The position numbers and the translations under genes are program-made. DNA of 64,000 nucleotides from Halococcus agarilyticus (GTDB lineage: Archaea > Halobacteriota > Halobacteria > Halobacteriales > Halococcaceae), in contig NZ_BAFM01000003.1 in the NCBI RefSeq assembly GCF_000334895.1, positions 1 through 64,000 of the forward strand, read 5' to 3'. The notes under the pieces are model-generated. The model was not told where the DNA came from. It saw only the letters and a program-made list of their open reading frames with translations, and ran no database searches. Within the stretch, counting starts at the first letter, position 1, and every line of letters starts with the position of its first letter. This document shows, piece by piece, positions 5,945 to 28,650 of this stretch.

Positions 5945-7543
5945 TCACTCTGCGGGCGACACGCCGGTCACGGTGCCGACGCCCTTCGACTGCCCCTCGC
6001 GAAAGACGAAGCGCTGACCCTCCTCGACGAGGTAAGGGCGGAACTTGAAGCGGACAGTAGTGGAGCCGGTGTCACCAGGAAGAAGCTGACCCTCGGCAGG
6101 GTGAAAGGCGGCGGCCTCGCTCACGGTTTCGAGGTGGACGACTGGCTCGTAGCCGTCGTCGATCCTGGTGGGGTGGTTGAGCACCATCACGTCGGCCTCG
6201 AACTCCCGGACGGGGTCGGGATCGGCCTCGCGCGGCAGGAGCACCATCCCACGCTCGACGTCGGTCTCGCGGACGCCCTTCAGCGCGATGCCGACGATTC
6301 GCCCGGCCTTCGCGCGGTCCACACGGTGGTAGTGCATCTCGATCGAGCGCGCCTCCACATCGCGAAAGGAGCCGTCGGGAAACGGGCCGAGCAGGAGTTC
6401 GTCGCCCGCTTCCACGGTACCGGAGCGCACAGTTCCGGAAGCGACCGCACCGACGCCCGTGATCTTGTAGCTCCGGTCGACGTACATCGAGAACTCGCCC
6501 TCGCCATCCCCGGTCTTCGGCAACCGGCCGAACAGGTCGTCGAGCGTGTCCAGTCCTTCCATCGTGACCGTGCTCGTTCGGAGCACCGGGACGACGGAGC
6601 CACCGATCTCCTCGACCGCCGTATCGACGCCGTGGCGCTCGACGCGGAGCGGGGTCTTCCCGACGTCCCGGAGCAGGCGCTCGACCTCGCGTTCGACCTC
6701 GCGGGCGCGCTCGCCGTCGACCATGTCGGTCTTGGTGATCGCGACGATCGTGGGGAGCTCGGTCGCGAGGAGGACGCCGAGATGCTCGCGGGTGGTCTTG
6801 GTGGGGCCGTCGTCGGCCGCCACGGTCAGGAGGCCGTAGTCGAGTTTCTGGCCGACGAGTCCTCGAATCGTGGTTCGGAGCCACGGCTCGTGACCCACGG
6901 TGTCGACGAACGACACCAGCTTGTCGGCCGACTCGACCACTTCGGCACGGTCTGACTTCCGGTCGGGGTTGTCGGTCCGGACCGGCTCGCCCTCGACGAA
7001 CCCGTAGACCGCATACGAGAGGTCCGCCGAGAGGCCGCGCTCGACCTCGTGGGGCTGGACATCGAGGAAGCTTCGCGTGCTTCCCTCGCCGTCGTCCGGC
7101 CGGCCGGTGACGAGGCTTCCCACCAGCGTGCTCTTGCCGTGATCGACGTGGCCCGCGGTGCCGACGACGATATGGCCGTCGTCCTCCAGCAGCGCGCCCT
7201 CTCGAACGGTGGCGACGCCCACGAGCCCCCCTTCGATCCCCCACGTGTCGACCGACTCGATGTGGGCGTCGGCCTCCTCGGCGAGCAGCGAGAGCACGTC
7301 CATCGACTCCGAGAAGTCCTCAAGAGAGATCCCCGCGAGCCCGCCGGCGTCGGTGACACCGACGACGTACGTGGCCTCGCCGTCGCCCGAGAGCACCCGG
7401 TGGCGGAGCTGGGCCGCGAGGCTTTCGAACTTGCCGTCGGCGAGGTGGAGGTCCTTCGTGAGCCGTTCCTTGAACTCGACGCTGCCGCCCTCGCGCTCGC
7501 CCGCATCGAGCGCCCGTTCGAGGACGGCCCGGTCGGGGGCCAT
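5945..7543 (-). CDS. GTPBP1-like translational GTPase (EF-1A/EF-Tu related)
   Basis: A 532-residue GTP-binding protein. After an N-terminal extension of about 120 residues come G1 GTAGHVDHGKST (128-139), G3 DTVGHEPW (about 213) and G4 TKTD (about 272). Domains II and III then follow as the EF-Tu-type beta barrels (SYKITGVGAVASGTV; PYLVEEGQRFVFREG). The N-terminal extension and overall order match GTPBP1/2, eukaryotic and archaeal GTPases linked to ribosome rescue and mRNA surveillance. The start is the only ATG before the extension. It is a single-gene unit, and the spacer upstream holds a dispersed repeat. Confidence 0.88.
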   Translation of the reverse strand: MAPDRAVLERALDAGEREGGSVEFKERLTKDLHLADGKFESLAAQLRHRVLSGDGEATYVVGVTDAGGLAGISLEDFSESMDVLSLLAEEADAHIESVDTWGIEGGLVGVATVREGALLEDDGHIVVGTAGHVDHGKSTLVGSLVTGRPDDGEGSTRSFLDVQPHEVERGLSADLSYAVYGFVEGEPVRTDNPDRKSDRAEVVESADKLVSFVDTVGHEPWLRTTIRGLVGQKLDYGLLTVAADDGPTKTTREHLGVLLATELPTIVAITKTDMVDGERAREVEREVERLLRDVGKTPLRVERHGVDTAVEEIGGSVVPVLRTSTVTMEGLDTLDDLFGRLPKTGDGEGEFSMYVDRSYKITGVGAVASGTVRSGTVEAGDELLLGPFPDGSFRDVEARSIEMHYHRVDRAKAGRIVGIALKGVRETDVERGMVLLPREADPDPVREFEADVMVLNHPTRIDDGYEPVVHLETVSEAAAFHPAEGQLLPGDTGSTTVRFKFRPYLVEEGQRFVFREGQSKGVGTVTGVSPAE

Positions 7544-17005: not shown

Positions 17006-18026
17006 GCCCGAACACTGCGAAGAGCGGCGACTTAGGTGTTGTGACGCGTCCGAGTGCCGGAGCGCACCACGGCCACGCACGCGCCGCCTCCTCCCGCTCT
17101 TGCTCGTCGTTTGCGTCGTTCTTGCGGGCTGTAACGGCGTTTTCGGGAGCGACGCAGGGACCCCCGAGCGAACGCTCACGCCGGCGGCCGTCCCGACCGA
17201 CGAGCCGACACCGACACCCGTGCCGCAGCTCGCGCCCGGTCTCACCGGCGAGGGCGTCGTGAACGCCAGCGCGCTCGCGGCGGCACACGACGCCACGCTC
17301 GACGACACGTCGTTCACCGTCCGGCGGACGGTGACGTATCGCACTCGCAACGGCACGTCGATCCGGCGGATCGAGAGCGTGACTCGCGTCGCCGACGACG
17401 GCCGGTTCCGGATCACGAAACGCTGGAACGGGTCGACGCCCTTGCGACGCGTGGCGTACTACGACGACGGCGAGCGGCTGCTCGTGGCGACGACCGGCAC
17501 GGACGACGCGACGACCTATCGCCAGGCGTCGCCGGGGACGGTCGTCGCCCAGCGGTCTTCGGTCGCCGCAGCGGGAAGCCGACGGATCGAGACGATGTTC
17601 GTCGCTGGCGAGACGGTCGTCGCCGGACGAACGGAGCGCAACGGGACCACGGTCTACCGCCTCGTGCCGGCAGAGACGCTCCGGCGCTCGCCCGAGACGA
17701 CGACCGGCCTCGGTCGGGCCGTCAGCGTCGAGGCGCGCGTCACCGACCGGGGCCGCGTTCGGAGCTACACGCTCGTCCAGCGCCTCAGCGGCGAGGGATC
17801 GGACGGGGCGGCGAGCATCGTCGTCTCGACGCGCTACAGCCGGGTCGGTTCGACCGACGTCGAACGCCCCGCGTGGTACGGCACGGCGCTCGCGGCGACT
17901 GACGTGACGACAGCGAACCGGACCGGGGCCAGGACCGAGACAGCCACGACAGCGACGGCAGCCACTCGAACGGTCCAACGTCGTGAGCGCCGGGCGACGG
18001 CGATCGCCGTCGGTCAGGCGTCGTAG
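17004..18026 (+). CDS. Secreted lipoprotein of unknown function (haloarchaeal)
   Basis: About 340 residues with a Sec-type lipoprotein signal: a basic PRTRRLL stretch, a hydrophobic LPLLLVVCVVL core and lipobox VLAGC with Cys43. A Thr/Pro-rich linker (TPAAVPTDEPTPTPVPQ) follows, then a beta-rich extracellular domain with several N-x-S/T sites. The start is uncertain. The only in-frame ATG nearby (17004) gives a Cys-rich N-terminus and overlaps the USP start. An N-terminal sequencing error or a frameshift near 17080 from GTG 17041 would also explain the odd leader. No function is recognisable. Confidence 0.7.
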   Translation: MPEHCEERRLRCCDASECRSAPRPRTRRLLPLLLVVCVVLAGCNGVFGSDAGTPERTLTPAAVPTDEPTPTPVPQLAPGLTGEGVVNASALAAAHDATLDDTSFTVRRTVTYRTRNGTSIRRIESVTRVADDGRFRITKRWNGSTPLRRVAYYDDGERLLVATTGTDDATTYRQASPGTVVAQRSSVAAAGSRRIETMFVAGETVVAGRTERNGTTVYRLVPAETLRRSPETTTGLGRAVSVEARVTDRGRVRSYTLVQRLSGEGSDGAASIVVSTRYSRVGSTDVERPAWYGTALAATDVTTANRTGARTETATTATAATRTVQRRERRATAIAVGQAS

Positions 18027-18292
18027 CGCTGCGAGGCGTAGCTCACGAGCACGAGGAGGATCCCGAGGCCGACGCCCATCGTCCCCATCCCGTAGGCCGC
18101 GAGGCCGAGCGGCGTGGGCTGGAGTTCGATCAGGAAGAAGAGATCGACCGGTCGGAGCTCGTCGGGGCCGAACGTCCCGAGCAGGAATCCCGTGAGCCCC
18201 GCGATGGCGACGACGACGGCGTAGACGACGAGAACCACCGACCGGCCGCGCCGCCCCGTCGATGGCGTCGTCGCCGTCGGGTTCTCCGACAT
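18014..18292 (-). CDS. Small two-span membrane protein of the cox locus
   Basis: A 92-residue protein with two hydrophobic spans (VVLVVYAVVVAIAGLTGFLLG and a second from LGLAAYGMG to VLVSYA) joined by a short charged loop. I associate it from memory with a DUF family (DUF7520) seen beside haloarchaeal cytochrome oxidase genes. It overlaps the 3' end of the convergent lipoprotein gene by 13 nt. Its role is unknown; an accessory or assembly role in the oxidase is suggested only by location. Confidence 0.72.
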   Translation of the reverse strand: MSENPTATTPSTGRRGRSVVLVVYAVVVAIAGLTGFLLGTFGPDELRPVDLFFLIELQPTPLGLAAYGMGTMGVGLGILLVLVSYASQRYDA

Positions 18293-18352
18293 ACTCGTGA
18301 GTGACTTCCGCCGGACAATCAGCCTTTTGTCCTCGCGCGCCCGAACCCCGCC

Positions 18353-18439
18353 ATGGCCGAAAAAGAGCTCCTCCTGCTGATTCTCGTCGCCATCGCGGTG
18401 TCGATGGCGATGATGACCGTCGTCCTGGTCGTCAGCTGA
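18353..18439 (+). CDS. 28-residue single-span membrane microprotein
   Basis: An ATG at 18353 opens a 28-codon frame: MAEKELLLLILVAIAVSMAM, then MTVVLVVS and TGA. It has a short charged head and one uninterrupted hydrophobic helix. A TATA-like CTTTT at 18324-18328 lies about 26 nt upstream, the spacing for a leaderless transcript, and composition is strongly membrane-like. It sits between two cox-locus genes and converges on coxA. Very small single-helix subunits (CcoQ, CcoH, subunit IV types) occur in heme-copper oxidases, so it could be one. That is inference. Confidence 0.6.
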   Translation: MAEKELLLLILVAIAVSMAMMTVVLVVS

Positions 18440-18541: not shown

Positions 18542-20452
18542 TCACTCGTCCTCGGACGGTTGGCTGTCGCCGGTCCGTTCGTCGTCGGCGGACTCGCTAC
18601 GCTCGCCGCCGTCGGATCGCTCCGCGCTCCGACGAGGATCGCGCTCGCCGTGCTCGCGCTCACCGCCGTCGGTCATCGCCGTCTCCTCATCAGTGTCCTC
18701 GCCACCGTCGGCGATCGCGGTCTCGGTCCGGCGCTCGTGCCACTGCCACTCGTGGGTGAACTGGCCGGTCTCCTTCAGGTTCCACGGGTCCGCGTCCTCC
18801 ATCGATGGGGCCTCGTACCACGACTGGACGAAGTTCCAGACCCAGATGACCTGGCCGACGAAGATGATCAGCGCGCCGAGCGTCGCGACCTGGTGGAAGA
18901 CGGTCACGATGTTCACCGGCCCGATCGGGAAGTCGTAGGTCGCGTACCGCCGGGGCATCCCGAGGTAGCCCAAAAATAGCATGGCGAAAAAGGTGAGGTT
19001 GGTCCCGATCGCCGTCAGCCAGAAGTGCGCCTTCGCGAGGCGCTTCTGGTACATCTTCCCGGTGAAGATCGGGAACCAGTAGTAGATGCCGGCGAAGAAG
19101 GCGAACCCGAGCAGCCCCATCACGATGTAGTGGAAGTGACCCACCACGTAGTAGGTGTCGTGGAGCACGAGGTCGACAGGAATGGAGGCGAGGAACACGC
19201 CCGTGACGCCGCCGATGATGAAGTTCGACACCGCGCCGATACAGAACAACATTGGGGCAGTCAGCCGGACGTTGCCGCCCCACATCGTGGTGATCCAGTT
19301 GAACGTCTTGACCGCGCTCGGGATCGCGATCGCGAGCGAGACCGCCATGAAGCTCGCACGGATCCGGGGATCGATCCCCGTGGAGAACATGTGGTGCGCC
19401 CAGACGCCGAACGAGAGCACCCCGATCGCGAGCGTCGAGTAGACGACGAACTTGAACCCGAACAGCTTCCGTCCGCTGAACTTCGGGATCACGAGGCTCA
19501 GTATCCCCATCGGCGGCAGCGCGAGGATGTACACCTCGGGGTGGCCGAAGAACCAGAACAGGTGCTGCCAGAGGATCGGCCCGCCACCCTCCCCGGCCGC
19601 GAAAAAGGTCGTCGCGAAGTTCCGATCGAGCAGGAGCATGATGAGCGCGCTCCCCAGCAGCGGGAACGCGAACAGGATCAGCCCGGACTGGGTCAGGATG
19701 GTCCACGAGAAGATGTCGAGGTTCGCCCAGTTGACGTCGGGCCCGCGCTCGGTGAAGATGGTGGCGATGAAGTTGATCGCCCCCATCGTGGCCGAGACGC
19801 CGGTGAGGTGCAGCCCCAACAGCATGAGGTCGACGCCGACGTTGGCCTGGGTGCCGCTCCCGACGCCCGCCGACAGCGGGGTGTACATCGTCCACGCGGT
19901 CTGTGCCGGGACGATGTCGAGGCTCGCGATCGGGGCGGTGAAGAAGCCGGCCCAGACGAGGATCGCCCCCGGTGGAAGGAGCCAGAACGCGATGGCGTTG
20001 ATCCGCGGGAACGCCATGTCGTCGGCACCGATCAGGAGGGGGATGAAGTAGTTCCCGAACGCCGCGATCGCGGGCGTCCCGAACAAAAATAGCATCGTGA
20101 TGCCGTGGCTCGTGAGCAGCGAGTTGTAGAACTCCGCGCCGATGACGTCGGTGGCGGGCGCGAGGAGCTCCGCGCGCATCAGCATCACCATGATGCCGCC
20201 GACCGAGAAGGCGACGACGGCGTACGTGCCGTAGAGGATCCCGATGTCCTTGTGATCCACCGACGTCAACCACCGGATGATCCCGCCGGGCTTCTCCTCG
20301 TGGGCGTAGCCGGTCTCCCCGCCGACGGCACCGCCACCGCCGCCAGCCAGCGGCGTGTACGAGCGCCAGTCCTCGATGCGGGCGAGCCACGCAGCGACGC
20401 CCGCGAGGAGCAGTCCCATCAGGACCGTCATCACGAGCTGGACTTCTACCAT
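18542..20452 (-). CDS. coxA: Cytochrome c oxidase (heme-copper oxidase) subunit I, A type
   Basis: A 636-residue protein with about 12-13 spans and all cofactor ligands: heme a His116 (TSHGITM) and His441, heme a3 His439 (VVGHFHY), CuB His304 and His353-354, and Tyr308 of GHPEVYI for the His-Tyr cross-link. Glu306 marks an A1-type D-channel. It reduces O2 to water and pumps protons, taking electrons from CuA in CoxB (in haloarchaea probably via halocyanin). An extra N-terminal span precedes the core (residues 1-25), and an acidic cytoplasmic tail of about 60 residues ends it. A minus-strand CTTTACG near 20473-20479 fits a leaderless promoter. Confidence 0.97.
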   Translation of the reverse strand: MVEVQLVMTVLMGLLLAGVAAWLARIEDWRSYTPLAGGGGGAVGGETGYAHEEKPGGIIRWLTSVDHKDIGILYGTYAVVAFSVGGIMVMLMRAELLAPATDVIGAEFYNSLLTSHGITMLFLFGTPAIAAFGNYFIPLLIGADDMAFPRINAIAFWLLPPGAILVWAGFFTAPIASLDIVPAQTAWTMYTPLSAGVGSGTQANVGVDLMLLGLHLTGVSATMGAINFIATIFTERGPDVNWANLDIFSWTILTQSGLILFAFPLLGSALIMLLLDRNFATTFFAAGEGGGPILWQHLFWFFGHPEVYILALPPMGILSLVIPKFSGRKLFGFKFVVYSTLAIGVLSFGVWAHHMFSTGIDPRIRASFMAVSLAIAIPSAVKTFNWITTMWGGNVRLTAPMLFCIGAVSNFIIGGVTGVFLASIPVDLVLHDTYYVVGHFHYIVMGLLGFAFFAGIYYWFPIFTGKMYQKRLAKAHFWLTAIGTNLTFFAMLFLGYLGMPRRYATYDFPIGPVNIVTVFHQVATLGALIIFVGQVIWVWNFVQSWYEAPSMEDADPWNLKETGQFTHEWQWHERRTETAIADGGEDTDEETAMTDGGEREHGERDPRRSAERSDGGERSESADDERTGDSQPSEDE

Positions 20453-20663: not shown

Positions 20664-21056
20664 TCAGTTGGAGTCGGCTTCGGTGACCGCAGGTTCGAGG
20701 TCGTCCGCCTCGCCGCCCTCGTTCCTGTTCTCGTCGGCAGTTTCGGCGGTGACGCCCTCGGACAGGTCGCTGGTCGCCCCTTTCGAGCCGGATTCGAGGG
20801 TGCCCGAGTCCTCGTCCGTCGCGCTGGCGTCGGCTTGCTCCGCACTCGCAATGACGCGGCCGGAGAGATACGTGAGGAGGGCGAGGGCGACGAACGGAAC
20901 CACCAGGAGCGCCATGCTGACCACGGTCAGAACGAGGTTCTGTTCCCACGGCCTGATGACGAGAAAGAGCACCACGAAGAACAGGATGATCCCGAGCGGG
21001 ATGACGTTGACCGTGAGGTCGAGGAGCGTCTCGCGGTCGAAGGTACGCTCTGCCAT
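20664..21056 (-). CDS. Two-span membrane protein of the cox locus
   Basis: A 130-residue protein with two strong spans (VIPLGIILFFVVLFLVI and LVLTVVSMALLVVPFVALAL) joined by RPWEQN, and an acidic Ser/Glu-rich C-terminal tail of about 60 residues. From memory it corresponds to DUF6684, a family found next to haloarchaeal coxA. A minus-strand CTATTTATC at 21076-21084 lies about 25 nt upstream, indicating its own leaderless promoter. Its function is unknown; an oxidase accessory subunit is plausible. Confidence 0.75.
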   Translation of the reverse strand: MAERTFDRETLLDLTVNVIPLGIILFFVVLFLVIRPWEQNLVLTVVSMALLVVPFVALALLTYLSGRVIASAEQADASATDEDSGTLESGSKGATSDLSEGVTAETADENRNEGGEADDLEPAVTEADSN

Positions 21057-21095: not shown

Positions 21096-21500
21096 TCAGT
21101 ACGGCTCGCTCTCGACGTACCGCCCGCCAGCCCCCGCGACGAGCGCGACCAGGCCCGCGACGACGACCGCCACACCCCGAGCGACGATTCCGTTGGGTTC
21201 GCGTACGATAGTCACGAGCGCGTCCGGCGTCACGGCGGCGAGCTGCGTCACGGTGAGGACGCCGCCGAGCAGTACGAGCACACCGCCGAGCCCCACGAGC
21301 AGGTTCCACGGCCGGTCGGCGTAGCCCGACTCCTGGACGATCCCTGCGACCGCGGCGACCAGGAGGAGCAGGCCGCCGACCGCGACCGGGAAGACGTTGA
21401 ACAGCAGTCCGAGCTCCGAACACACGAACCCGAGCACCACGATCACCGGCCACGGGCTCGACGTCCGGTACTGGTCGCTCACACCCGGCTGCTCGTCCAT
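21096..21500 (-). CDS. Four-span membrane protein of the cox locus
   Basis: A 134-residue hydrophobic protein with about four spans and a short cytosolic N-terminus (MDEQPGVSDQYRTSSPWP). From memory it resembles DUF7541 of haloarchaeal oxidase loci. Charged residues are few and confined to loops. It lies between two other cox-locus membrane proteins on the same strand but has its own upstream A/T-rich stretch (21518-21530). No catalytic or metal motif is visible. Confidence 0.72.
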   Translation of the reverse strand: MDEQPGVSDQYRTSSPWPVIVVLGFVCSELGLLFNVFPVAVGGLLLLVAAVAGIVQESGYADRPWNLLVGLGGVLVLLGGVLTVTQLAAVTPDALVTIVREPNGIVARGVAVVVAGLVALVAGAGGRYVESEPY

Positions 21501-22029: not shown

Positions 22030-22884
22030 ATGGGAACAGCGGACGACACGGCGGAGGAACACGGCGGCCACCATCTCCCGGCGGACGAGGACTGGCCGCG
22101 CGGGTTCGGCGAGGCGAGCTGGTGGCCCTTCGTGAGCGCGGCGGGCGCGGCCGGGATATACGTCGGCGCGGCGCTCTTCCTGTTGGGACGTGGCGACGTG
22201 GACATCGTGCCACCGATCGCCGGCCCGGCGGTGGTCGTCGCGAGCGCCGGCCTGTTCCTCGCCGGGCTGTTCGGCTGGCTGTATCACGCCTTCGTCGCCG
22301 ACTTCTGGTCGCGCGGCACCGACGAACACAGCGCGGACACCCTCCGCTTTGCGATGGTGTTGTTCCTCGGCACCGAGATCGCCACCTTCGGGGCGGGGTT
22401 CATCTACTACTTCTTCATCCGGGTCGGCACGTGGACGCCTGGCGAGCTTCCGCACTTGCTGAGCTCGCTGGTGCTCGCGAACACCGCGATCCTCGTGATC
22501 AGCAGCTTCACGTTCCACTTCGCCGAGGTCGCGCTCCGAAAGGGCAATCGCCGTCGGTTCCTCGGCTTGCTCTCTGTCACTGCGATTCTCGGGATCGTCT
22601 TCATTGGGGGCCAGATCCTCGAATACTACGAGTTCATCGTCAACGAAGGGTTCACGCTCACCAGCGGCATCTTCGCGAGCGCCTTCTTCGGGCTCACCGG
22701 TCTCCACGGTCTCCACGTCACGATGGGCGCAGTCTTGATCGGGATCGTCCTCGTTCGGGCGTTCGCCGGGCAGTACTCCGCCGAGCGCCACACCTCCGTC
22801 AGTACGGTCTCGATGTACTGGCACTTCGTCGACGTGGTCTGGCTCTTCCTCGTCGTGGTGCTCTACGTCGGGGCCGTGGTCTAA
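22030..22884 (+). CDS. coxC: Cytochrome c oxidase subunit III
   Basis: A 284-residue protein with seven spans and the subunit III pattern: EASWWPFVSAAG near the start, FLGTEIATFGAGFIYYFF, the conserved Glu region GGQILEYYEF, FFGLTGLHGLHVTMGA, and the final YWHFVDVVWLFLVVVLY. Subunit III stabilises the oxidase and protects proton uptake. A TTTTTGG TATA-like box at 21999-22005 lies about 28 nt before the ATG, supporting the start. It is transcribed convergently to the large FAD/Fe-S gene. Confidence 0.95.
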   Translation: MGTADDTAEEHGGHHLPADEDWPRGFGEASWWPFVSAAGAAGIYVGAALFLLGRGDVDIVPPIAGPAVVVASAGLFLAGLFGWLYHAFVADFWSRGTDEHSADTLRFAMVLFLGTEIATFGAGFIYYFFIRVGTWTPGELPHLLSSLVLANTAILVISSFTFHFAEVALRKGNRRRFLGLLSVTAILGIVFIGGQILEYYEFIVNEGFTLTSGIFASAFFGLTGLHGLHVTMGAVLIGIVLVRAFAGQYSAERHTSVSTVSMYWHFVDVVWLFLVVVLYVGAVV

Positions 22885-26242: not shown

Positions 26243-27088
26243 TTACGCCGGCTTCGCCGAAACCGCGCCGATCGCCGAGCTGTTGGACGAGGCGTTACCG
26301 CCCGCTGAAGCGTTACCGCCGGACGATTCCTGTTCGTCGAGCCACGTCTGGTACTCCTCGGGCGGCAGCACGGTCATGTTCGCGAGCATTCCCGAATGAC
26401 CCGATCCGCAGAACTCCGCGCAGTAGAGCTGGTAGGAGCCCGTCTCGGTGGCGTTGGTCTTGATGGTGTTGTACTGGCCGGGGATCGAGTCCTGTTTCAG
26501 CCCGAGCTCCGGAACGTGGACTGCGTGGATCACGTCGGTCGAGGTGGTGTGGAGGTAGACGTCGGTGCCGTTCGGGATGGCGAGCGTACTCGAGGAGTTG
26601 ACGCCCGCCTCGGGGTAGTGGAAGGTCCAGCCCCACTGGTAGGCGATGATCTCGACCTCGACCGCGTCGCCCTCCGTCGGCGCGGTCGCGCCGGACTGGT
26701 TGATCAGGAGATCCGCCCCCACCTGCTGTTGGGCCTGGGGCTGCTGGCCGGCGGCGTCGGGCACCAGCGAGATGTAGGGGTTCGCGAGCACCACGAACGA
26801 CGCGAGCCCGACGAACAGGAGGATGATCGCGGTCGTGATCGTCCACGTGATCTCGAGACGGCGGTTCTCGCGGGTCGGCTGAGGATCGTCGTTGTTGCGG
26901 TACTTCACCACCGTGTAGATCAGGATGGCCTCGACGAGGATCGTGATCGGGATCGCCACGTACAGCAGCGACTGGTTCAGGTTGGTGATCATCCGCTCGT
27001 TGATCGACTGGGCCAGCGCCGGCTCCACGGCGGCGAAGAGCAACGCGACGACGAGCAGGCCGAACAGGCCGAGACGCGTTCGCTTCAT
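26243..27088 (-). CDS. coxB: Cytochrome c oxidase subunit II (CuA)
   Basis: A 281-residue protein: signal-like N-terminus (LGLFGLLVVALLFAA), two spans (about 40-65 and 85-105) and an extracellular CuA cupredoxin domain. CuA ligands are His188 (VIHAVHVPELG) and the cluster C223-A-E225-F-C227...H231..M234. Aromatic YQWGWTFHYPE lies on the electron entry face. The Asn/Ser-rich tail (SSGGNASAGGNASSNSS) offers N-glycosylation sites. ATG 27088 is chosen because CATAAATA at 27113-27120 sits about 27 nt upstream. It is divergent from the heme A/O synthase gene. Confidence 0.95.
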   Translation of the reverse strand: MKRTRLGLFGLLVVALLFAAVEPALAQSINERMITNLNQSLLYVAIPITILVEAILIYTVVKYRNNDDPQPTRENRRLEITWTITTAIILLFVGLASFVVLANPYISLVPDAAGQQPQAQQQVGADLLINQSGATAPTEGDAVEVEIIAYQWGWTFHYPEAGVNSSSTLAIPNGTDVYLHTTSTDVIHAVHVPELGLKQDSIPGQYNTIKTNATETGSYQLYCAEFCGSGHSGMLANMTVLPPEEYQTWLDEQESSGGNASAGGNASSNSSAIGAVSAKPA

Positions 27089-27203
27089 CTGTGCCGAACT
27101 CGGGCAGTTGCGCATAAATACCTGCTGACTTTCCCGCTCGGTGGCCGAAAACGCGGGGCCTAAGTGCGGCGGCCGTGAACGGTTTACCCGAGCTATCCCA
27201 GCC

Positions 27204-28650
27204 GTGGCCACCGACACTCACGTCCCGTCGCGGGTACCGACGCTGCTCGCCGCCGCAGCCGTCGGCGTCTACCTCCTCGTCGTGATCGGGGCGACCACGA
27301 CGCTCTCCAATGCCGCCGCGGCGTGCACGACCTGGCCGGCCTGTGGAGTCGACCTTGCCGACCCCCAGCTCCTCATCGCGTGGGGCCACCGGGTCGCCGC
27401 GGTGCTCGCCGGCCTGGTCGTGCTCGCCGCGATCGTCGCGACGTGGCGAACGCCCGCACCGCGTCGGGCGAAGCTCGTTCTCGTGATCCCGTTCGTGTGC
27501 TACCCGATCCAGGTCGGCATCGGCGCGCTCGCCGCCACCACCACCACGGCGTGGGTCTCGACTGCCCACCTCGTCTGCGGCGTGGGGATCTTCACCGGGC
27601 TCGTAGTCGCGCTCGCGTGGACGCTGGAGGCCGAGACCCTTGGCACCGCCGCACTCAGTGAAGCGTCGACCACGACGACCGCCGCACCGTCCGCCGGGAG
27701 TCGATCCGAACCGGCGGTTTCGGAGACGGAGGCGAAACCGACGATGACCCAGCCGCAGTCCATGGGGGACACGGGACCGATCGAGCGCGCACGGACAGTC
27801 GGGAGGGCGTACTTCCGACTGATGAAACCCCGGCTGATGTGGCTGCTGTGTCTCGTCGCGGCCGCCGGGATGGCGCTCGCCGCCGGGCCGGCACTCGATG
27901 CCGGCACAGTCGTGCGGGTGCTCGGCGGTGGCGTGCTCGCGATCGGCGCGAGCGGCACGTTCAACCACGTCCTCGAACGCGACATCGACCGCCGGATGCA
28001 GCGAACCGCCGACCGGCCGCTCGCGACCGACGAGGTGGGCGTGCGCAACGCGATGGTCTTCGGTTGCGTGCTCGCGATCGCGTCGCTCTGGCTGTTCTAC
28101 TCGGTGAACCTGCTCGCGGCGGCGCTCGGGCTGTGTGCCATCCTGTTTTACAGCGTGATCTACACCCTGGTGCTCAAGCCGAACACAGTGCAGAACACGG
28201 TGCTGGGGGGCGCAGCGGGCGCGCTACCGGCGATCATCGGCTGGGTCGGCGTCACGGGGGAAGATCGGCGTCCCGGGGCTCGCGCTCGCGGGCGTGATCT
28301 TCCTCTGGACGCCCGCGCATTTCTACAATCTCGCGCTCGCGTACAAGGACGACTACGAGCGCGGCGGGTTCCCGATGATGCCCGTGGTCCGTGGCGAGCG
28401 GGTCACCCGCCGGCACATCCTCTGGTATCTCGGGGCAACCCTGCTCGGCGCGAGCGTGCTCGCGGCGGTCGCCGAACTCGGCTGGCTCTACGCCGCGGCC
28501 ACGGTCGCCTTCGGTGGCCTGTTCCTCTGGGCGGTCGTCCGGCTCCATCGCGAGCGAACCGAACGCGCCGCGTTCCGGGCGTTTCACGCGTCGAACGCCT
28601 ACCTCGGCGCGGTGCTCGTCGCGGTCGTGATCGACGCCGTCGTGCTGTGA
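27204..28650 (+). CDS. ctaB: Heme A synthase-like / heme O synthase (CtaA-CtaB) fusion with a frameshift
   Basis: The N-terminal half is a short CtaA/COX15-like membrane domain (TLSNAAAACTTWPACG, WGHRVAAVLAGLVVL, STAHLVCGVG), followed by a polar linker. The C-terminal half is the UbiA-type prenyltransferase CtaB, with MKPRLMWLLCLVAAAG, the Asp-rich NHVLERDIDRRMQRTADRPL and, after the shift, AYKDDYERGGFPMM. CtaB farnesylates or geranylgeranylates heme B to make heme O for the oxidase. The reading frame changes at the G5 run 28256-28260: one G too many moves ...IIGWVGVTG out of frame with KIGVPGLALAGVIFLW. This is a homopolymer sequencing error or a real inactivating mutation. GTG 27204 fits GGTTTAC at 27181. 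Confidence 0.85.

Follow-up and report, generated by a model that had tools for sequence, protein, structure and literature searches.

A probable single-helix companion peptide of a haloarchaeal terminal oxidase

The bd-type oxidases have very small subunits with one helix, CydX and CioY among them, whose genes lie next to those of the oxidase; CioY, a protein of 34 residues, was discovered from an overlooked conserved reading frame (PMC11955535), as was the peptide presented here. Among the haem-copper oxidases, the 36-residue subunit CcoM has been described from the cbb3 enzyme of one bacterial species (PMC10433244), and subunit IIa (CbaD) of the B-type (ba3) oxidases, which accompanies a subunit II with one membrane helix, is often overlooked in annotation and is known in haloarchaea too (PMC3128077). 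Peptides so short and hydrophobic easily escape annotation and mass spectrometry (PMC3128077), and the composition of the haloarchaeal terminal oxidases is still counted among the open issues (PMC8305020). The subject of this study is a gene for a 28-residue peptide in a window of 64 kb (the whole stretch analysed, positions 1 to 64,000 of contig NZ_BAFM01000003.1 of Halococcus agarilyticus), where it sits between the genes for a DUF7520 membrane protein and for CoxA, subunit I of an A1/aa3-type haem-copper oxidase (Table 1). Based on its conservation and setting, we favour, with a probability of roughly 65%, the reading that the product would be a small, one-helix accessory subunit of the haloarchaeal A1/aa3 oxidase, made from its own promoter and docked by one face on a partner.

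By analogy, the peptide most likely works like CydX, CioY or CcoM, and it is filed here as a putative new family of tiny single-helix companions of terminal oxidases, in this case for the archaeal A-type enzyme. Conserved linkage to oxidase genes, a trait of these small single-helix parts, which make up a functional class and not one family, was found at 137 of 152 distinct loci; these loci are the 183 matches at an expect value (E) of 1e-4 or lower after merging copies identical in the frame and its 60 upstream bases, with start codons assigned by rule (ATG first, length nearest 28); G097, G116, G124 and G163, whose peptides are truncated or divergent, do not contribute to them. CydX and CioY belong to another oxidase superfamily, whereas the neighbour of the peptide is a haem-copper subunit I and not the cytochrome bd genes, and the CioY homologues are described as conserving Trp, Pro and Tyr (PMC11955535), which the peptide family does not. 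CcoM is a minute additional component of a haem-copper oxidase, as the peptide would be, and is set beside it by description.

Database searches placed the peptide in no described family. The window peptide matched no Pfam or NCBIfam family at E ≤ 0.1, a search in which 28 residues have little power, and it had no relative among solved structures at E ≤ 10. The 54 family members yielded scattered weak matches to unrelated single-helix models (best E 0.0024 and 0.0027), and one of them matched CbdX weakly (E 0.053). No description of the peptide was found in the literature searched, supplementary tables not included, so an earlier detection is possible, and a gene table may already carry it as a hypothetical protein; the main text of a ribosome-profiling study of Haloferax volcanii does not contain the word oxidase (PMC12482152).

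An earlier note on this DNA had suggested a small oxidase subunit or assembly peptide of the CcoQ/CcoH kind, and the analysis bore this out in part: the single-helix peptide is genuine and conserved, is linked to the cox locus and has a conserved promoter. CcoH is larger than the 28-residue peptide. CcoQ, with CcoH likewise a small membrane protein of a haem-copper oxidase, has 61 residues (PMC10433244). Kinship with either was rejected: at thresholds of E ≤ 0.1 for the window peptide and E ≤ 1 for the 54 members, neither profile was matched, and the adjoining oxidase is of CtaD/CoxA and not of cbb3 type, its subunit I having CtaD_CoxA as its best NCBIfam match (E 5e-198; 658.8 bits, just missing the cut-off of 670.75) against 61 bits for CcoN. 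Subunit IIa shares with the peptide one membrane helix and a place in a haem-copper oxidase locus, but it too was rejected as a homologue, three of its defining features being unmatched here. Its partner is a one-helix subunit II, whereas the product of coxB in the window has, after a hydrophobic segment that is probably a signal peptide, two more at residues 86-104 and 127-145, in addition to a CuA motif; the placement of its gene differs, coxB lying about 8 kb from the peptide; and it is marked by a PX1-3G(T/A) motif and a conserved Trp, whereas the peptide family conserves neither Pro nor Trp.

The peptide and its conservation

The 28-residue product is MAEKELLLLILVAIAVSMAMMTVVLVVS, in which a charged head, A-E-K-E, is followed by a single hydrophobic stretch whose best 19-residue Kyte-Doolittle mean is 2.9, and which lacks both Pro and Trp. 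It was alone in exceeding a 19-residue mean of 2.0 among the 81 frames of 20-45 codons in the window, counted from the first ATG after a stop. The frame, its charged head with one membrane helix and its setting beside coxA between two genes of the cox locus had all been proposed in the earlier note, and each agreed with what we found.

The same peptide occurred in the same place at the DUF7520-homologue loci of related genomes, a setting that recurs across the class Halobacteria. A profile of 19 rows (A1) matched 275 of 391 Halobacteria genomes at E ≤ 0.1, and one of 54 rows (A2) matched 270 of them, in 68 of 86 genera, at E ≤ 0.01, although the A2 rows were drawn partly from genomes of the searched sample, which therefore match by construction. 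Two of the 270 were weak positives (G050, E 0.003; G332, E 0.006), and because genomes of one class share kinship, none of these counts is one of independent events. The A2 profile when reversed, and thus of nearly equal composition, matched none of 126 genomes of the class, an empty result that is weak proof since it lacked a known positive. In a sample of 176 genomes of the phylum there were 20 matches, and because only two lay outside the order of the window, both at E of about 0.004, inside longer open frames of 75 and 724 residues and at about the number that chance would give at E ≤ 0.01, the family looks confined to Halobacteria. Among the genomes with a name, it was present in twelve of Haloferax (L123-L134) and also in Haloarcula, Halostella, Haloquadratum and Halococcus, and its length was 27-30 residues in 133 of the 152 distinct copies. 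The earlier note had proposed looking for the frame next to coxA in other Halobacteria, and there it was indeed conserved.

Comparison of 62 close pairs, each sequence used once, revealed selection on the encoded protein. The pooled ratio of nonsynonymous to synonymous substitution rates (dN/dS) was 0.185, and differences fell on codon positions 1, 2 and 3 in the numbers 198, 81 and 461, while the corresponding ratio of proportions (pN/pS) in the two other frames was 1.22 and 2.87. Mean identity was 86% in the frame against 35% in the 60 nucleotides 3' of the stop, by a crude, ungapped count. Judged from this record, the frame is a genuine protein-coding gene, and a chance origin was ruled out by its retention in 270 genomes, its dN/dS, its rank in hydropathy among the 81 frames and the reversed-profile control.

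Conservation was also unevenly distributed around the predicted helix. Conservation was highest, across 122 distinct cores, at M1, K4, L7, L11, A15, M18, G22 and L25, and the period of conservation, tested over positions 6-27 and hence excluding K4, peaked at 95-100 degrees per residue, a signal that none of 5000 permutations equalled. Such a helical period is the mark of a helix one side of which would lie on a conserved partner. None of Pro, Trp, Cys and His was conserved in the family.

A conserved promoter

The TATA-like box that the earlier note had placed some 26 nucleotides upstream was recovered as a TTTT at -28 to -25, and its register with the ATG is conserved. In 118 upstream regions (one per distinct protein, from 147 loci with an ATG start, five loci with a GTG start being excluded), A or T was found at -10 in 77% and at -9 in 68%, and T at -1 in 81%. 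These positions recall the elements described for haloarchaea, a proposed TATA box TTWT and a -10 element WW, from a study in which 72% of the protein-coding transcripts of Haloferax volcanii were leaderless (PMC4983044). The conserved promoter together with these published elements makes it most likely that the peptide gene has its own leaderless transcript.

The spacer between the peptide gene and that for DUF7520 (Table 1) also holds a sequence, GATTAGCCTTTT, common to many loci. Its GATTAG half was absent, by eye, from three loci in which the peptide gene is co-directional with that for DUF7520 (L069, L189 and L195), and because it is gone there it may belong to the DUF7520 promoter.

Linkage and co-occurrence with the oxidase

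In the 137 loci with coxA in the fetched stretch, coxA was downstream and convergent with the peptide gene in 131, upstream and co-directional in five and otherwise arranged in one, and in 131 of them it lay less than 1 kb from the peptide. DUF7520 was a neighbour in 147 of the 152 loci: in 141 it was upstream, on the opposite strand and within 400 nucleotides, in one it was further away, and in five it was downstream and co-directional. The co-directional loci, which include L161, L189 and L195, show that the peptide gene is more than an antisense transcript. In family f7, six loci (L062, L063, L064, L066, L067 and L068) had no coxA in the fetched stretch but did have DUF6684 and DUF7541, and in three of these a profile identified a DUF7520-like frame upstream. 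At another locus without coxA (L078, peptide on the + strand), a small frame at about 6140-6670 that appears by eye to encode a halocyanin-like blue-copper protein adjoins the peptide-DUF7520 pair.

Presence of the peptide followed that of the oxidase closely. When presence lists for the 391 genomes were compared by eye, with a window-type coxA defined by E ≤ 1e-150, 266 genomes had both, four (G050, G077, G088 and G332) the peptide alone, five (G097, G116, G124, G163 and G362) coxA alone and 116 neither. Four of the five coxA-only genomes carry a cut or divergent version of the peptide: in G116 it is seemingly severed by a contig end, G097 and G124 have a divergent version of 28 residues near DUF7541 (E 0.002-0.003; MPRKETLGLLLLTVTVGVFVSGFLTAVL in G097), and another, MSRQVALGLLLAAAAAGVFVSGLAVAAF, was spotted by eye in G163. 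The divergent 28-residue single-helix peptides of these last three genomes (loci L114, L115 and L116) are of a GLLL...VFVSG type, near DUF7541, and DUF7520 was not detected in the three genomes; they may represent a second branch of the family. In single searches, twenty genomes without the peptide had either no subunit I or one at most 41% identical to that of the window, whereas 11 of 12 peptide-bearing genomes searched alongside had a window-type subunit I.

Co-occurrence with DUF6684 was equally close, with 268 genomes having both, two the peptide alone, four DUF6684 alone and 117 neither, and in 68 of 80 named loci the peptide lay within about 5 kb of DUF6684. No peptide was detected at E < 1e-3 in the other 12. 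Two of these (L137 and L144) end at contig ends near coxA, three (L146, L149 and L159) have no coxA near DUF6684, and in L190, apparently G404:C29, the peptide falls just beyond the fetched stretch; the remaining six are L138, L143, L151, L155, L157 and L184.

A putative accessory subunit and its rivals

On the reading that we favour, the promoter would give a leaderless mRNA and this in turn a short single-pass membrane peptide, which would enter the cytoplasmic membrane as one helix. The face formed by K4, L7, L11, A15, M18, G22 and L25 would dock on a conserved partner while the opposite face met lipid. The partner would most likely be the A1/aa3 haem-copper oxidase, either CoxA itself or accessory membrane proteins, above all DUF7520, and the docked peptide would aid the assembly or stability of the oxidase as a small accessory subunit. 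Several observations weigh against this. The genomes G077 and G088 have clear peptide matches without a window-type coxA, the best subunit I of G088 being 41% identical, and coxA was absent from the fetched stretch in 15 of the 152 loci. In many genomes one peptide goes with two or three window-type coxA genes (three against one in the genome of the window itself), which implies that some oxidase copies are without a peptide gene of their own. Finally, the peptide is linked more tightly to DUF7520 than to coxA, so that DUF7520, rather than the oxidase itself, may be the partner.

The main rival is an assembly or insertion peptide that would bind CoxA or another subunit transiently, perhaps together with DUF7520 while haem or copper is inserted, and be absent from the mature enzyme. 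Its apparent transcription as a separate unit, the single copy of its gene where there are several of window-type coxA, and its closest link being with DUF7520 would all suit such a role. The co-occurrence and the one-face conservation fit a subunit equally, however, and with no conserved Cys or His the family lacks the features of a metal or haem chaperone, so that we consider an assembly role unlikely, although less so than any other rival. It is improbable that peptide and DUF7520 form instead a two-protein membrane module that modulates respiration or another membrane process, its tie to coxA being purely regulatory. DUF7520 does adjoin the peptide in nearly all loci, some without coxA in the fetched stretch among them, but the peptide is present almost exactly where window-type coxA and DUF6684 are, and G097, G124 and G163, which have coxA, keep their divergent peptide though DUF7520 was undetected.

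Two further explanations have very little to recommend them. That the promoter serves an RNA, for example one antisense to the 3' end of coxA, with the frame incidental, would agree with the convergence of the two genes in 131 loci; the frame-specific selection, the amino-acid conservation with a helical period and the five loci where the peptide gene runs in the same direction as those for CoxA and DUF7520 are contrary to it, and a purely antisense RNA was ruled out on these grounds. A hydrophobic frame arisen by chance, or a small hydrophobic toxin with no part in respiration, would likewise be short, hydrophobic and under its own promoter. Chance is excluded by the conservation, selection and control described above, and a distribution that is class-wide, tracks one oxidase and is mostly single-copy speaks against a toxin as well, leaving both scarcely credible.

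A tentative extension of the accessory-subunit reading, which we hold with less than even confidence, is that peptide and DUF7520 constitute an accessory module that is specific to the haloarchaeal A1/aa3 oxidase and has no counterpart in the bacterial or mitochondrial aa3 enzymes. With DUF6684 and DUF7541, the latter perhaps subunit-IV-like, the module would make up a lineage-specific shell, in which the 28-residue helix would be the smallest component and the most constant, and might be an adaptation to halocyanin as the electron donor or to the archaeal lipid membrane. A 28-residue gene that tracks the aa3 oxidase through an archaeal class, together with three neighbouring genes for membrane proteins of unknown function, provides a concrete parts list for purification, deletion and cryo-electron microscopy in Haloferax. 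If the accessory-subunit reading is true, the rule that terminal oxidases have tiny single-helix parts (CydX, CioY, CcoM, subunit IIa) would reach the archaeal A-type enzyme.

Other genes of the cox locus

Table 1. Coordinates of the peptide gene and of its neighbours in the window.
Feature	Position	Strand	Evidence
DUF7520 membrane protein with two helices, most tightly linked to the peptide	18014..18292	-	PF24364, E 5.5e-28; 147/152 loci
60-bp spacer between head-to-head starts of peptide and DUF7520, holding the peptide promoter	18293..18352	.	head-to-head within 400 nt in 141/152 distinct loci
TATA-like TTTT, -28 to -25 of the peptide start	18325..18328	+	T at -27 (97%) and -26 (93%) of 118 upstream regions
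28-residue single-helix peptide gene	18353..18439	+	ATG to TGA; kept in 270/391 Halobacteria genomes; dN/dS 0.185
coxA, haem-copper oxidase subunit I, A1/aa3 type	18542..20452	-	PF00115 (COX1), E 7.7e-152; GHPEV at residue 303
DUF6684 membrane protein	20664..21056	-	PF20389, E 2.8e-34; 268 genomes with both it and the peptide
DUF7541 membrane protein, perhaps subunit IV-like	21096..21500	-	PF24396, E 2.6e-43
coxC, oxidase subunit III, start by eye	22030..22884	+	seven hydrophobic segments; identified by eye
coxB, oxidase subunit II, longest frame, which probably begins upstream of the true start	26243..27217	-	CuA motif CAEFCGSGH; identified by eye

The GHPEV motif of CoxA is taken here as a mark of the A1 type. 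For DUF7520, the structure model was poor (predicted local distance difference test, pLDDT, 68.9; predicted template modelling score, pTM, 0.36), and a search for an annotated copy on plasmids gave no match. DUF6684 is probably an oxidase accessory protein; its co-occurrence with the peptide and window-type coxA over the 391 genomes is near one to one.

It is possible that DUF7541 is a subunit IV of the haloarchaeal oxidase. Cyt_c_ox_IV was matched weakly by 11 of 28 DUF7541 members (best E 0.0013), the protein of the window falling under the curated cut-off, and the DUF7541 model (pLDDT 88.4) had no Foldseek match at E ≤ 0.001. The N-terminal 60 residues of the model, a hairpin, aligned both with subunit IV of the mycobacterial aa3 oxidase (6hwh_S; Z 6.7, 56 residues, 4.8 Å) and with bovine subunit III over its first helices (1occ_C; Z 6.2, 59 residues, 3.9 Å), a likeness to be read as a lead only because unrelated helical chains outscore the oxidase chains (ArnC, Z 8.8). 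Further along the + strand, at about 27141-28650, lies what appears by eye to be a fused haem A synthase/haem O synthase, which seemingly shifts reading frame near its end, occupying two frames.
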